Assembly (NCBI GenBank): GCA_949282275.1
Contig: CASDOO010000016.1
Span: 1 to 39,342, forward strand
DNA from: an uncultured Bacillota bacterium
Lineage (GTDB): Bacteria > Bacillota_I > Bacilli_A > RFN20 > CAG-288
Length of the DNA stretch: 39,342 bases
Direction: 5' to 3'
In this document: positions 5,496 through 13,939 of the stretch, piece by piece
Layout of the letters: the number at the start of each line of letters is the position of its first letter
Position numbering within the stretch: position 1 is the stretch's first letter
Program-made: the position numbers and the translations under genes
Notes under the pieces: model-generated
What the model saw: only the letters and a program-made list of their open reading frames with translations
The model's database searches: none
Told to the model about the DNA's origin: nothing

Positions 5496-8474
5496 TTAAT
5501 TTTCCGTCTTTTCCGACTCGACGTAAGGTTCCTTCTTGATGCTTCGGATGGCAAGGACGAAGATGATGGCACCCGAGACAAGGATCACGCCGCCGATGGC
5601 ACAGTCGATGGCAATCATGAAGACGGTCCAGCCGGGCAAAGTCGTTCCGACGACATCGCCCTGCATCAGGTTGGAGTTGACCAAGGCATAGGCAACGTTC
5701 TTGAGGATGTTGCGGACGATGATGGCATCGGCCGTCGAGCCTTCGTCGGCATCGGACCAGTGGGAACTCGGCATCGTGCAGAGGTTGAGGTCGCCACCGG
5801 CATAGGCCATCATCTTCGGATTCATGTACTGTGGGATGGTGTTGAAGTCGCAGATGACCGCGCCGCGGAAGCCCCATTCATCGCGAAGGATGGTCGTCAT
5901 GAGGCGATAGTCGCCACCCGTCCAGCGCGTTCCGATACGGTTGAAGGAGGACATGACGCCCCTCGTCTCGCCGATCTTGACGGCAATCTCGAAGGGACGG
6001 AGGTAGATTTCGCGCATTGCCTGCTCGGTGACCCAGGAAACGTCGCCGGTAATGGAGCGGTGGGTTTCCTGTTCGTTGAGGGCGAAGTGCTTGATGAAGG
6101 GAAGGACACCCTTGCTGTTGCAGCCCTTGATTTCATAGGCGGCAATCATTCCGGAAAGGAGGGCGTCCTCGGAATAGTATTCGAAGTTTCTTCCGCCGAA
6201 GGGGGAACGATGGATGTTCATGGCCGGGGCATACCAACCCGTATAGACGGAGCTACCCGTGCCATAGAGGCCTTCCTCGCCGACGGCTTCTCCGAACTTC
6301 TGGGCGAGTTCCTTGCTCCAGGTGGAGGCAACGGTCACGCCACAGCAATAGGAGGCACAGCCCGCAAAGTTGGAATTGACGAAGGAAGTCCAGCCGACAG
6401 GGCCATCGGCACAATCGGCTCTCGGCATGGTGATGCTATCGACGCCGGGGATGCCATAGGAGGCGTTGTTGTACATGTTGAGCGCCTGGTTGAAGTCCAT
6501 CTGGTCGAGAAGGGTATCCCAACGGGGATCATTGTAGTCGACCTTTCCGACGAATTCGCCTGTTTCGGCATCATAGAGAAGGTCTCTCAGGTTCAACGTC
6601 TTCTCGGCATACATCATGGGGTATTCCATGCTGTCGAAGTCGGTCGGGTTGTTGGGTGTCCTGTCTTCCATCGCTTCGACGAATTCGTCCGTCGCGACAC
6701 GGTCCTGATCGGTCGGTGTCGTCGGCCAGGTACCTTCCCAGTCGGAACGGCTAAGCAGGGTGGAAAGATGCGTATCGGAGTCGAAGTTGGGATCTTCCTG
6801 ATCGGTATAGAGATTTTCGACCTTGGTTCCGGTCACGGGATCGTTTTCGATGCGCTGATCCGTCGGAAGGGTAAGGTCCATCGTCTCAAGGACGGTATGG
6901 GCATCTCTGTTGACGTGGAGGGAATAGACGCCATCCTCAAGCTCATAGCCCTTGAAGCCATTCTCGTTGGCATCGCTATAGTCGTAGGAAGCGGCATAGT
7001 AGGGATCGAAGGTCAGCGTGACGGTCTGGCTTTCGCCCGGCTGGAGAAGAGGCGTCTTGGCAAAGTCGACCAGGACCTCGTAGGGCTTCTCGATTCCGCC
7101 TTCCGTATAGGGAAGCGTGACATAGAGCTCGACGACGTCCTTGCCGGCGACATCGCCGGTATTGGTGACCTTGACTTCGACGGACACTTCGCTATCCGCA
7201 GTGAAGTCGGTACCGGAGATTGCATCCTTGTTTTCGACTTCCCATTCGAATGTTGTGTAGCTTAGACCATATCCGAAAGGATAGACGACAGCATCATCGT
7301 ACCATTCTTCGCCATCGGTAAAGCCACGCGTTTCGTAGTAGCGATAGCCGACATAGACGCTTTCCTCGTAGTCGACGAAGTAATACATCGTCAGCTCGCC
7401 GTTGTGGCTGTACTGATCGCCACCCTGGATACCCGCCTGGTAGTTTCCGGTGATTCTGTTGTCACCGAAGTTGTTCCATGTCGGATCCTTCTTGAAATCA
7501 GCACTGAAGGTATCGACCGTCCTTCCGGAAGGGTTGACCGTTCCGTTGAGAATCTGGCCAAGGGCCGTGGCGCCGGAGTTTCCGGGATAGCCCATCCAGA
7601 TGGCGGCATCGATCTTGTCCTGGTAGGCATAGTAGTCAGGATCCTCCAGGAAAGAGAGCTCCATGATGGAACCGGAATTGAGGACGACGATGACTTTCTT
7701 GAATCCGCCTTCGCAGACGGCCTTGAGAAGGTCCGTCTCGTTCTTGTCGAGCTGGAGGAAGTGATCGTCCTCGTTGTTGTAGCCGGTGGAACCCTTCATC
7801 GTCCTAGGAAGGTCAAAGCCTTCGCCACCGATACGGGTGAAGACGACGATGGCAGCATCGCTGTATTCGGAATAGGAGGACTTGACGGCATCGGTGTAGC
7901 TTGATTGCGGTGTCTCGCCGGTGGCAAGGATCTTTGTATCGCCGGAATCGAGGTCACCATCGGAAGCGGTCCTGCCGTCTCCGGAAGCGCCTTTGTCCTC
8001 ATAGAAGCCCTTTAATGTCGGATTGACTTCAAAACCGGCAGCTTCCAGGGAATCGTAGATGGAAACGGATTCGCCCGATGCGGCACCCGATCCGGAACCG
8101 CCGATGGCAATGTCGACCGAGTTCTTTCCGAAGACGGAGACCTTCGGTTTTGCGGAAGCGGGTGTTGGACTATTCGGTGTCTGAAGAGGAAGGGCATTGT
8201 CCTTGTTCTTGAGGAGAACCATGCCTTCCTGGCACATCTCGAGGTTGACCTGGTCGGCGTTCTGCTTTGCCGCCTCCTTGGAGTCGTAGATTCCCAAATA
8301 GGCGGTTTCCTGTCCTTCGGCATAGATGTTCTTCGGTCCACCAAAGGCAAAGTTCAAAAGCGAAGAGAAAACCGTGGTGCAGAGGATCGAGACCGTCGTC
8401 GCAACGACAATCGTCGCTGCCGAGGCGATAGCCCAGATCTTCGGCGCCTTTCTCTTGAAAACCTGTTTTACCAT
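5496..8474 (-). CDS. GH3 beta-glycosidase, permuted domain order, membrane-anchored at both ends
   Basis: 992 residues. A membrane segment at about 13-38 is followed by the GH3 C-terminal-type alpha/beta domain (about 75-330, with GGEGFDL; E218 is the likely general acid/base). A fibronectin III-like domain comes next (about 390-530, VTNTGDVAGKDVVELYV). The TIM-barrel GH3 N-domain comes last (about 640-900), with DGP, GRNFEYYSED, KHFALNEQE and nucleophile motif VICDF (D876). A second membrane segment spans about 947-976, ending in RSIKK. This reversed order is known from some clostridial GH3 beta-glucosidases such as Butyrivibrio bglA. Family knowledge predicts exo-release of beta-linked sugars; the substrate is unknown. 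Both termini should be cytoplasmic with the enzyme outside. GAGGACG gives the ribosome binding site. Last gene of the operon, 17 bases after the lipoprotein. Confidence 0.9.
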   Translation of the reverse strand: MVKQVFKRKAPKIWAIASAATIVVATTVSILCTTVFSSLLNFAFGGPKNIYAEGQETAYLGIYDSKEAAKQNADQVNLEMCQEGMVLLKNKDNALPLQTPNSPTPASAKPKVSVFGKNSVDIAIGGSGSGAASGESVSIYDSLEAAGFEVNPTLKGFYEDKGASGDGRTASDGDLDSGDTKILATGETPQSSYTDAVKSSYSEYSDAAIVVFTRIGGEGFDLPRTMKGSTGYNNEDDHFLQLDKNETDLLKAVCEGGFKKVIVVLNSGSIMELSFLEDPDYYAYQDKIDAAIWMGYPGNSGATALGQILNGTVNPSGRTVDTFSADFKKDPTWNNFGDNRITGNYQAGIQGGDQYSHNGELTMYYFVDYEESVYVGYRYYETRGFTDGEEWYDDAVVYPFGYGLSYTTFEWEVENKDAISGTDFTADSEVSVEVKVTNTGDVAGKDVVELYVTLPYTEGGIEKPYEVLVDFAKTPLLQPGESQTVTLTFDPYYAASYDYSDANENGFKGYELEDGVYSLHVNRDAHTVLETMDLTLPTDQRIENDPVTGTKVENLYTDQEDPNFDSDTHLSTLLSRSDWEGTWPTTPTDQDRVATDEFVEAMEDRTPNNPTDFDSMEYPMMYAEKTLNLRDLLYDAETGEFVGKVDYNDPRWDTLLDQMDFNQALNMYNNASYGIPGVDSITMPRADCADGPVGWTSFVNSNFAGCASYCCGVTVASTWSKELAQKFGEAVGEEGLYGTGSSVYTGWYAPAMNIHRSPFGGRNFEYYSEDALLSGMIAAYEIKGCNSKGVLPFIKHFALNEQETHRSITGDVSWVTEQAMREIYLRPFEIAVKIGETRGVMSSFNRIGTRWTGGDYRLMTTILRDEWGFRGAVICDFNTIPQYMNPKMMAYAGGDLNLCTMPSSHWSDADEGSTADAIIVRNILKNVAYALVNSNLMQGDVVGTTLPGWTVFMIAIDCAIGGVILVSGAIIFVLAIRSIKKEPYVESEKTEN

Positions 8475-9970: not shown

Positions 9971-10007
9971 AAAAACCTTCGACCCCGGACGAAGGCCCAG
10001 GGTCGAA
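9971..10007 (-). terminator. Internal terminator/attenuator within the GH3 operon
   Basis: On the minus strand TTCGACCCTGG (10007-9997) pairs with CCGGGGTCGAA (9988-9978) with one G-U pair and an 8-nt loop, followed by GGTTTTTATG. It stands between the 1231-aa GH3 gene and the CBM-like lipoprotein gene and should reduce, not abolish, read-through because the U-tract is short. Confidence 0.7.
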
Positions 10008-10027
10008 AGTTACATATCAAAGAGGAA

Positions 10028-13000
10028 CTACTTGACGCTGAAGGTGATGGTTTGGACGTACTGGGTCTCGGAGCAACCGAAGGTGAAGAGCCAACCCATC
10101 ATGTACATCGTCTGAGGCAGGTTGAGTGTGACGGTGATGGTGTATTCGCCAGGTTCGGTCGGCGTTCCGGACATCTCGAGGTAGTCGGCAACCTCGTATC
10201 CGCCTCTGTGGGAGAGACCATCCCACCACTTGTTGACGGTCTTGAAGGTCATGCCAGGGACTGTACCATCGACGGAGTATCCATATTCGTGCTTTGTCTC
10301 GGCTTGGCTGATATCGATGGTGACGATGTCGGAAGCGGTCTTGTCCTCGTTACGGTTGTACTTCTGGAACATGTATTCGTACCAGTTGACGACAAGGCTA
10401 CTTCCAATGGTGCTGCCATAGGCAAGGGACGGAGCCTGGATCTTTCCGGTGAAGGCTTGGTTGGCCTTGAGTTCGATCTTTCCGTCGGTCGTGACGGCAG
10501 TACCGTTGACCTGGAGAGCGGAGACGACATGGATTTCGAGATCGGCAGTGGAAGTGATCCAGCCATCGACCGTGACATTGACGGGGACGGTGTAAACGCC
10601 TTCCGCTTTGGGGTTGCCGGAGATGACGTTGCCGTTGACAAGGCTCAGTCCATCAGGCATTTTGGCTTCTTCGGCAAGGGAGACGGAGACATCGTTGGTT
10701 CCGGCGATGGTGACGGGGATGTTGTTGCTGACACCCTTCTCGACATTGACGACGATCTTCTCGCCGGCAGTGAAGCCGTTTTGGGCCGTGGAGGAATTGG
10801 CTCTGGTATAGAGGGCTCTCTGGGCACGGATACGGACACCGTAGTAGAGGGTGTCGTTTTCCATCGTGGCATTGGTGGAATCGGTGACTTTCTTATCGGG
10901 GGAGACAAGGACAGTCTTCTTCTCGGCATCCCAGACACCATGGTCGAAAGCGTTGTTGGAATAGGATTTGGACGATCCAAGGAGCTGATCGGATCCGGCA
11001 ACGGCCATCAGGTTGACAGGGACGTAAGCCTTGGCCCAGGCGTCGGTGCAGACATCGGCCTTGGAATTCCATTCGTCGCGGAGGAGATACTGATGGATGG
11101 CGTAGGAGTTTGCCGTGACCTGCTTACCGATACGGTTGAAGGAGGACATGAGACCCATGGAACCGGCCTTGATGGCGAATTCGAACGGACGGAGGTAGTT
11201 CTCGCGCATGACCTGCTCGGTGGCCCAAGTGAAGACACCACCAAAGTCCGCACGGAAGGATTCCTGATCGTTGAGGAAGAAGTGCTTGCAGTAGGTGATC
11301 AATCCCTTGGAGAGGGCACCCGTGACTTCCGCATAGGAGAAGCGGGCGGAGTGGAAGCTATCCTGGGAGAAGTATTCGAAGTTACGGCCGGAGAAGGGAG
11401 ACCTGTGGATATTCATGCCGCCGCCTGCCCACTGGGAGAGTCCGGCGAAGATAGCCTGGTTTCCGACGATGCGACCCTTCTGCTCGGCAAGGTCGACGTT
11501 GAAGGAAGCGGCAAGGATCGGGTTGGAGGGGAAGAGGGTTCCGCCACGAATCTGGACAGGGCCGTCGGCGTAGTTGTCTTCCGGCTTTCCGATGTTGCCC
11601 ATGGCGGAGATGCCAGGACCGGACTTGGCATCGCCGGAGACGATGTTGGCCATGTCTTCCCAGCTAAGCTGATTCATGAACTCTTCCCACTTCTGGGTGC
11701 CTTCGTCATCGGAGATCGTGACGACGCCATCCTTCAGGGTCGGAAGCTCATAGTCGATGCCGCTCATTTCGGCGAGCATGATGGCACCATCCTTGGGAGT
11801 GACGCCCTGATCCCAATTGGTAGGGACGTTGCTGACGTACCAAGGATCGGTGTTCTTGAGTTCGGAATGATAGTAGATATCCTGATCGTCGTATTCGGCA
11901 AGCGTCGCATCATCCAGGGTCCTGTCTTCCTTGGAAGCCGGCTTAGGCTGTTCAAGGCCAGTTGCCCTGGAGATTTGGTTGGCGAGGAGCGTCTCGTTGG
12001 TGGAATCGAATTCATCGACGAAAATCGGCTTGATTTCCTTTCCGGAAGTATAGTCAGTATCGCAATGAATGTCAGAAGCGACCTTTCTTGTTGTCATCAG
12101 GACGGGAGTATGAGAATCCCTGTTGGCGGAGATGATGTAGTCGCCCGCCTCGAGTTCATATCCCTTGTATCCGTTCTTGTTGGCATCGTTCCAGTCGAAG
12201 GAGGCCATGTCCTGGGCAACGAACTGGATCTCGACGATTTGGCTTTCGCCAGGTTCGAGCATGTCCGTCTTGGCGAAGTTGACGAGGTTGTTGGAGGCCT
12301 TCTCGATTTCGCCCTTGGTGTAGGGGGCAGAGTAGTAGACCTGGACGACATCCTTGCCGGCGACATCACCGGTATTGGTGACCTTGACGCGGACGGTGAC
12401 GGTCCTGTTGGCGGCATCGATGGTCAGATTGTCTTCCACACCGGCCCATTCCCAATCGAACGTGGTATAGCTAAGACCATAGCCGAAGGGATAAAGGACG
12501 TTTTCCTTGTACCAGCTCTCTCCCTGGGCACCCATGTCATGGGCCTTGGTCTCGTAGTACTTGTAGCCCATGTAGATGCCTTCACGGTATTCGACCTGAG
12601 AGTAGTTGGTGAGCTTTCCGTCTTCATCGTAGTAGGAAGCATCCATCCTGTTGCCATCGGCATCCTTGTTCTGGGTGTCGAAGCCGAAGTTCGTCCAGGT
12701 CGGATCCTTCGTGAAGTCGGAGGTCCAGATGTCGGAGGTATGACCGGAAGGATTCACTTCGCCGCTGAGGATCTTGCCGACAGCATCGACGCCGTTGTTT
12801 CCGACACCACCGATCCAAAGGATGGCGTCGACGCCGAGGTTGTCTGTCGTCTTCTCTGCCGCAAGGTCGGGAATCTGCATGATGTTGGAGGAGTTGATGA
12901 GGACGATGACCTTTCCGAAGTGCTGCTTGACGTGACGGATGAGGGCGACTTCGTTGTCATCCAGCTGGAGGATGTGGTCATCGGGGTTGGCATGGTCGGC

Positions 13001-13723
13001 AACGTTGTTGGTCGCAAGGTCCTTGTTCTCCGTGCCTTCCCTGGAGAGGGTGACGATGGCGGCATCGTTGTAGGTGTCATAGGATTCGATGGCGGAATTG
13101 GTGTAGTTGCTGATGGGCAGTTCGTTGTTGATCGTGCCCATCTGGAGATAGCTGTTGTAGAGGCTGATGGTTCTCGGGTTGACGGAGAATCCGGCATCTT
13201 CGAGGGAACTCTGGAGCGTCGAGTGCTGGATTCCGCCATTGTCGAGGGAACCGGCACCCGAACCGCCGCCGGCGACGACGAGGTCGACGCTGTGCATGCC
13301 AAACAGGGTGACCTTCTTTTCATACTTGCTTAACGGGAGGGTGTCGTTGGCGTTCTTGAGAAGGACATCGCCTTCTTCGGCAATCTGGACGGCGACCTCC
13401 CTTCCGGCTTCGTGGGCTTCCTTCTCGGTGGCATAGTCGGTGTAGTACTTTCCTTTCTTCTCCAGTAGGCCCGTCTTGCCACCGTCGGGGGTTACCAATG
13501 TTTCAACGATGGGCTCATACGGATCGGGTTCATCCGGATCATCGGGATCGTCGGGATCGACTGGGGTCGACGGTGTCGTTGTCGGATCTGGCGTCGTTGT
13601 CGTCGTGCCAGGTGTCGAGGTTGTGTTGGGTGTCGTCGAGGACGAGGCCTCAGGACTGCAACCGACCAAACCAAGGCTGAGGGAGGCGAGGAGCACAAGA
13701 CCTAATTTGATTTTCTTTTGCAT
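10028..13723 (-). CDS. Large GH3 lipoprotein with permuted domains and C-terminal Ig-like modules
   Basis: 1231 residues. Signal peptide with lipobox LVGC (Cys22), then a Thr/Pro linker and an acidic DDP-type repeat (about 23-70). The GH3 C-type domain (about 100-370, REG motif with E229 as likely acid/base) is followed by an FnIII-like domain (VTNTGDVAGKDVVQVYY, about 430-560). The barrel domain (about 650-920) has YADGP, GRNFEYFSQD, KHFFLNDQE and VCTDA, where D894 aligns with the nucleophile D876 of the downstream paralogue. The last 300 residues carry putative Ig/cadherin-like He_PIG modules (GLSLVNGNVISG…; MSGTPTEPGEYTITV). It is about 240 residues longer than its paralogue. Predicted to hydrolyse beta-linked sugars on the outer face of the membrane. 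First gene of the operon; ribosome site GAAAGGA. Confidence 0.9.
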   Translation of the reverse strand: MQKKIKLGLVLLASLSLGLVGCSPEASSSTTPNTTSTPGTTTTTPDPTTTPSTPVDPDDPDDPDEPDPYEPIVETLVTPDGGKTGLLEKKGKYYTDYATEKEAHEAGREVAVQIAEEGDVLLKNANDTLPLSKYEKKVTLFGMHSVDLVVAGGGSGAGSLDNGGIQHSTLQSSLEDAGFSVNPRTISLYNSYLQMGTINNELPISNYTNSAIESYDTYNDAAIVTLSREGTENKDLATNNVADHANPDDHILQLDDNEVALIRHVKQHFGKVIVLINSSNIMQIPDLAAEKTTDNLGVDAILWIGGVGNNGVDAVGKILSGEVNPSGHTSDIWTSDFTKDPTWTNFGFDTQNKDADGNRMDASYYDEDGKLTNYSQVEYREGIYMGYKYYETKAHDMGAQGESWYKENVLYPFGYGLSYTTFDWEWAGVEDNLTIDAANRTVTVRVKVTNTGDVAGKDVVQVYYSAPYTKGEIEKASNNLVNFAKTDMLEPGESQIVEIQFVAQDMASFDWNDANKNGYKGYELEAGDYIISANRDSHTPVLMTTRKVASDIHCDTDYTSGKEIKPIFVDEFDSTNETLLANQISRATGLEQPKPASKEDRTLDDATLAEYDDQDIYYHSELKNTDPWYVSNVPTNWDQGVTPKDGAIMLAEMSGIDYELPTLKDGVVTISDDEGTQKWEEFMNQLSWEDMANIVSGDAKSGPGISAMGNIGKPEDNYADGPVQIRGGTLFPSNPILAASFNVDLAEQKGRIVGNQAIFAGLSQWAGGGMNIHRSPFSGRNFEYFSQDSFHSARFSYAEVTGALSKGLITYCKHFFLNDQESFRADFGGVFTWATEQVMRENYLRPFEFAIKAGSMGLMSSFNRIGKQVTANSYAIHQYLLRDEWNSKADVCTDAWAKAYVPVNLMAVAGSDQLLGSSKSYSNNAFDHGVWDAEKKTVLVSPDKKVTDSTNATMENDTLYYGVRIRAQRALYTRANSSTAQNGFTAGEKIVVNVEKGVSNNIPVTIAGTNDVSVSLAEEAKMPDGLSLVNGNVISGNPKAEGVYTVPVNVTVDGWITSTADLEIHVVSALQVNGTAVTTDGKIELKANQAFTGKIQAPSLAYGSTIGSSLVVNWYEYMFQKYNRNEDKTASDIVTIDISQAETKHEYGYSVDGTVPGMTFKTVNKWWDGLSHRGGYEVADYLEMSGTPTEPGEYTITVTLNLPQTMYMMGWLFTFGCSETQYVQTITFSVK
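13515..13571 (-). repeat. Short 9-bp tandem repeat coding for the acidic DDP linker
   Basis: On the plus strand the unit GGATCATCG / GGATCGTCG / GGATCGACT repeats with period nine and decays at both ends. It encodes the (DDP)n hinge after the lipobox of the large GH3. Length changes would stay in frame and lengthen or shorten the stalk. Confidence 0.5.
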
Positions 13724-13751: not shown

Positions 13752-13763
13752 TCAAATCGGCAT
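13752..13763 (-). other. Possible minimal leader ORF (Met-Pro-Ile-stop) before the GH3 operon
   Basis: ATG CCG ATT TGA on the minus strand, preceded at seven bases by AGGAG. It lies in the predicted untranslated leader, 28 bases before the GH3 start codon. It could be chance; a coding role is not claimed. Confidence 0.25.
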
Positions 13764-13790
13764 ACGAAAACTCCTGAAAATCGTTCCTAT

Positions 13791-13843: not shown

Positions 13844-13874
13844 ATTATAGAACTGGGCGGGGGGGGTTCGTCAA
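13844..13874 (-). promoter_or_regulatory. Promoter of the GH3 operon with an 8-G/C tract in the spacer
   Basis: Minus strand TTGACG (13869-13874) and TATAAT (13844-13849) are separated by 19 bases, two more than the optimum. The spacer contains a run of eight identical bases (G on the plus strand at 13859-13866). Loss of one or two bases would bring the boxes to 18 or 17 apart. Predicted leader about 110 bases. Confidence 0.65.
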
Positions 13875-13924: not shown

Positions 13925-13939
13925 AGCGAGCGCTTACAA
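13925..13939 (-). promoter_or_regulatory. cre-like catabolite control site
   Basis: The minus-strand 15-mer TTGTAAGCGCTCGCT fits the Bacillus cre consensus WTGNAANCGNWNNCW at every position. It lies about 50 bases upstream of the GH3 -35 box and about 200 bases before the SDR start, so it could activate the GH3 operon or affect the divergent gene. A related near-match (TTGAAAGCGGTTTTT, one mismatch) is at 13892-13906 on the plus strand. Confidence 0.55.

Follow-up and report, generated by a model that had tools for sequence, protein, structure and literature searches.

A homopolymeric C tract in the promoter spacer of a surface GH3 glycosidase gene: a possible slippage-driven switch related to poly-G promoters of gut bacteria

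Introduction

In Neisseria meningitidis, a poly-G tract is located between the -35 and -10 boxes of porA, and its length sets the transcription of this surface-protein gene: a tract of 11 G gives high expression, whereas the surface level is approximately 2-fold lower with 10 G and 13-fold lower with 9 G (PMC3639595). The surface genes fim2, fim3, and fimX of Bordetella pertussis are under the control of C-stretch promoters (PMC1891110, PMC10172299), and a C7/C8 polymorphism in the fimX promoter causes a 3.8-fold change in transcript (PMC1891110). Slippage in a promoter spacer is therefore an already known kind of mechanism. In the gut commensal Bifidobacterium breve, slippage of a G-tract governs a surface structure, the pilus (PMC9187656). 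Here, we describe a tract of eight C residues (C8) in the promoter spacer of a gene encoding a lipoprotein of glycoside hydrolase family 3 (GH3). The gene lies on contig CASDOO010000016.1 of an uncultured Bacillota bacterium, the whole 39-kb stretch of which was analyzed and is referred to as the window. We propose, with a probability of about one half, that the C8 acts as a slippage-driven expression switch of GH3, i.e., that the gene is subject to phase variation.

The locus shares with porA a homopolymer placed between the -35 and -10 boxes of a surface-protein gene, but porA carries a G tract of 9–11, whereas the window has C8 on the coding strand and its variation in length is our supposition. 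The likeness to fim lies in a C homopolymer in the promoter of a surface gene, and the C7/C8 of fimX falls in the length range of the window tract; the difference is that the window C8 is situated between a near-consensus -35 box and the -10 box. The tract of B. breve is intragenic and acts by frameshift, unlike the one in the window, which is in a promoter spacer. The initial annotation of this DNA had likened the tract to the poly-G of porA. The placement between the boxes is shared, but the comparison is not supported in detail: the coding strand carries C, which brings the locus closer to the Bordetella fim C-stretches.

Results

The reading of window positions 13844–13874 on the plus strand is ATTATAGAACTGGGCGGGGGGGGTTCGTCAA, the reverse complement of which is TTGACG-AACCCCCCCCGCCCAGTTC-TATAAT (Table 1). 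The two boxes 19 bases apart with an 8-base homopolymer in the spacer, as first annotated, were thus exact in the sequence, on the minus strand. The C8 begins 2 nucleotides (nt) after the -35 box and ends 9 nt before the -10 box, and is the longest homopolymer of any base within the window; the species is represented by one consensus assembly, and tract lengths in short-read assemblies may be off by one. A mononucleotide tract between the -35 and -10 boxes is the arrangement found in the promoter-spacer simple sequence repeat loci of the porA/fim type. When promoters were scored by consensus matching (matches out of 12), the TTGACG/TATAAT pair was the sole sigma-A-type site of at least 11/12 in the window (spacers of 15–20 nt), and first-order Markov copies of the window contained 0.27 such sites on average. 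When a tract was placed at random, promoter boxes scoring 11/12 or better flanked it in 0.08–0.09% of cases. The promoter is intergenic, 120 bp upstream of the lipoprotein GH3 gene, and directed toward it.

Table 1 Features of the GH3 promoter region and gene in the window.
Feature	Position	Strand	Basis
-35 box TTGACG	13869..13874	-	sequence
Spacer AACCCCCCCCGCCCAGTTC, exactly 19 nt	13850..13868	-	sequence
Homopolymer tract, C8 on coding strand (G8 on +)	13859..13866	-	sequence
-10 box TATAAT	13844..13849	-	sequence
GH3 lipoprotein gene, 1231 amino acids, lipobox LGLVGC	10028..13723	-	Pfam + sequence
Strong terminator-like hairpin, then U run, directly 3' of GH3 stop	9974..10011	-	folding
Candidate cre/LacI-family-like palindromic operator TGTAAGCGCTCGCT, upstream of promoter	13925..13938	-	2 mismatches to TGTAANCGNTNACA

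Both the boxes and the tract could be fortuitous, with GH3 transcribed from elsewhere. An 11/12 site occurred in about a quarter of the Markov-simulated windows, and the implied 5' leader of approximately 115 nt is longer than usual. We nevertheless consider this explanation improbable: the site is the only one of its kind in 39 kb, points toward GH3 from the region upstream of it, and has no competitor there, as the minus strand of that region showed no further site scoring 9/12 or better with a 16–18 nt spacer. Judged from its sequence, TTGACG-19-TATAAT is a genuine sigma-A-type promoter of a surface-anchored GH3 glycosidase.

The genome to which the window belongs (G000; 1.507 Mb in 39 contigs) contained 27, 7, 8, 1, and 1 C/G runs of exactly 6, 7, 8, 9, and 10 nt, respectively. 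The step from 6 to 7 was at the expected ratio (0.26), yet runs of 8 outnumbered runs of 7; for ten runs of at least 8 among 17 runs of at least 7, the binomial p was 0.004–0.013. Five of these ten were located in promoter spacers versus none of the seven runs of exactly 7 (Fisher p 0.04), around which no promoter of 10/12 was observed (the best was 9/12). Four of the five were G runs that touch the -10 box or lie at most 1 nt from it, in promoters of the TTGACA/TTGTCC/TTGCAA-spacer-TATAAT-like type preceding genes for an ABC transporter, a 101-amino-acid protein, a secreted protein, and a membrane protein. The fifth was the window C8. Among the remaining runs, one G8 (L146, 2001–2008; G000:C10:158850) falls within the ribosome-binding region of an antitoxin gene (PhdYefM) that precedes a PIN_3 toxin, one is an in-frame G8 in or just after the signal-peptide region of another GH3 gene (L153:1900–4008; G000:C28), and one is an out-of-frame G8 in the N-terminus of a secreted-type protein (L151, 2001–2008). 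The last two, L148 and L152, had no clear role; the C8 of L148, near an AlbA_2/Schlafen gene, was considered as an off-frame contingency gene and dropped, as the open reading frame (ORF) ends well before the tract.

All C/G runs of at least 8 were collected from 15 genomes of the genus, giving 74 tracts. Twenty of the 74 lay, with G on the coding strand, inside a promoter scoring 10/12 or better, compared with 0.7–1.1% of random positions. With C on the coding strand, three of the 74 had such a promoter, and the window was among them at 11/12. In the secreted-type protein family mentioned above, the tract occupies the same codons in two genomes with different lengths, G8 in G000 and G10 in G013 (L135, 1501–1510), both out of frame. 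Loss of mismatch repair as the cause of the tracts was rejected, as MutS was found in all 15 genomes. Three further observations were made on tracts in the genus. An N6_N4 DNA methylase of the type III Mod-like kind (L142:1038–2651; G014) has an in-frame coding G8 near its N-terminus and is a candidate phasevarion. Orthologous lipoproteins of G011 and G012 (L116/L125), solute-binding-like by eye, have a G8 coding for Gly-Gly-Gly right after the lipobox cysteine. The sequence CTAGTTAATAATACCTTGCCTCTCTCG is common to the regions upstream of a G18 near a contig end (L104; G010:C2:81–98) and of a G8 (L112; G011:C18), for which a mobile element end or an assembly effect is possible.

Beyond the genus, the pattern TTGAC-N(3-12)-G8-TANNAT, which allows spacers only up to 19 nt, was present in 28 of 279 genomes of the order and in 26 of 392 genomes of a phylum sample, and the reversed-pattern control gave 0 in both sets. 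A scan of GTDB genomes with G9 found at least 118 stretches; the matches listed came from gut Clostridia, Bacilli, Lachnospiraceae, Treponema, Saccharibacteria, Streptococcus, Helicobacter, Streptobacillus, and others. Among the matches listed, 72.8% of the ORFs near poly-G promoters looked exported versus 24.8% of the remaining ORFs at these loci (p 1.8e-23), and 25.6% versus 4.2% were lipoproteins, as determined for ORFs of at least 100 amino acids within 150 nt of the promoter with a crude signal/lipobox heuristic. The spacer lengths of these promoters included few of 17 nt; no conclusion was drawn from this histogram because the pattern tops out at 19 nt and the lineages differ. Two groups of loci from the order, phylum, and GTDB scans (L206–L285 and L154–L205) had spacer poly-G of 8–14, mostly preceded by C and abutting the -10 box, upstream of exported proteins in many gut lineages. 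A 1.0-Mb genome (G556) carried ten similar promoters, most of them TTGACAAAACGCTCT-G9/G10-TAGAAT, constituting a multi-copy family with two tract lengths.

Homologous promoters that differ in tract length were also identified. Pairs were accepted at approximately 0.85 identity or more in both flanks together with matching sequence beside the tract, a strict definition adopted because free end gaps in the pairwise listing inflate identity. One pair (L068/L121) had G8 and G9 with flanks 96% identical, and the similar promoters L336 and L337 had G8 and G10. A scan of viral contigs, which served the tract-length comparison only, found 11 poly-G promoters. The initial annotation's view of the C8 as a plausible slippage tract is supported: at the level of genome, genus, and order, promoter spacers contain G tracts of 8 or more far more often than by chance, and near-identical homologous promoters can differ in tract length. 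Slippage switching at the window locus is well motivated, because its genome, like those of many other gut bacteria, has long G runs at this place in promoters of surface-protein genes. In the literature covered, which left out most subscription journals and bioRxiv preprints, we found no description of such poly-G promoters for gut Bacillota.

The window promoter has the setting in common with these poly-G promoters, namely a tract in the spacer, a surface lipoprotein, and a tract-rich genome, but not the typical anatomy. As in that class, an exported protein, the lipoprotein GH3, is encoded downstream. Several observations weigh against a switch. In the class, the G tract is on the coding strand and directly adjoins the -10 box, whereas the window has C on the coding strand, 9 nt away. 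In the order, the C-orientation pattern gave 2 matches, the window and one other, versus 1 in the control, and C orientation as a recurrent class was therefore rejected; the G orientation with comparably wide gaps gave 10 matches versus 0. A tract of 8 is short, and MutS is present. The upstream regions of the GH3 orthologues in three genomes of the genus (G001, G002, and G003; 55–66% identity) had no homologous tract. We do not claim membership of the poly-G class for the window because of the atypical anatomy, the 2 versus 1 result, and the three orthologues devoid of the tract; it is plausible, however, that the tract acts like that class.

The same observations suit another arrangement, in which a LacI/CcpA-type repressor bound to the palindrome upstream controls a real promoter, and the C8 is a species-specific, effectively stable spacer that switches nothing. 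The palindrome TGTAAGCGCTCGCT is a weak to moderate candidate for a cre/LacI-family operator; sites with two mismatches to TGTAANCGNTNACA occur at 0.28 per kb in the window, so this evidence is at most moderate. Similar boxes were found upstream near the GH3 orthologues L032 and L033; a cre-like box is thus present near orthologous GH3 promoters, from which the tract is absent. The presence of MutS and the lack of recurrence of the C orientation also agree with a stable spacer. On the other hand, C/G runs of at least 8 are rare in G000, with five of the ten falling within promoter spacers, and a C8 arising in a spacer by chance is unlikely because G/C homopolymers of 8 are otherwise avoided. 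We regard the stable spacer as a serious but tentative alternative.

The GH3 protein begins with the N-terminal lipoprotein signal MQKKIKLGLVLLASLSLGLVGCSP..., and with its lipobox it conforms to the surface glycosidase that had been annotated. Its Pfam domains are ordered GH3_C, Fn3-like, and GH3_N. This permuted order, with the GH3 C-terminal domain ahead of the N-terminal one, was seen in both GH3 proteins of the window (5496–8474 and 10028–13723, minus strand). The hairpin that follows the GH3 stop codon has 17 pairs, a folding energy of -32.5 kcal/mol, and a z of -5.2. The promoter had been attributed to a GH3 operon; its direction toward a Pfam-confirmed GH3 gene stands, but the operon is doubtful and the gene is probably transcribed alone because of this strong terminator-like structure. 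In the leader of the gene (13752–13775, minus strand), a four-codon frame, ATG CCG ATT TGA, follows GGAG, and may be there by chance.

Discussion

If the C8 is a switch, C residues gained or lost at replication would leave a spacer of 18, 17, or 20 nt in place of 19, and the changed spacer would tune or switch GH3 transcription in a fraction of the cells. This effect would be added on top of ordinary control of the LacI/CcpA type. We infer a change of tract length within the population, a lower-expression state at 19 nt, and the direction of the effect. With MutS present, switching of a tract of 8 nt may be slow.

We consider the poly-G spacer promoters as a wider class to be the more interesting finding and the one that most deserves further study. 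We think it fairly probable that stochastic control of the cell surface through poly-G promoters of exported proteins (G8–G12, directly 5' of the -10 box) is widespread, though little described, in uncultured gut Bacilli, Clostridia, Treponema, and others. The window GH3 promoter would be an inverted-strand relative of these. Its genome has further tracts at the N-terminus of a secreted-type protein, within another GH3 gene, and at the ribosome-binding site of an antitoxin gene.

Most mapping of phase variation in gut commensals has relied on DNA inversions. Should G tracts in promoter spacers be common switches of lipoproteins and glycosidases at the surface of uncultured gut Bacillota, many surface phenotypes would be bet-hedged, and such bet-hedging would be hidden by standard assemblies, which give one tract length per genome. 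For the window locus alone, the question is whether all cells or only some of them express a sugar-degrading surface enzyme.
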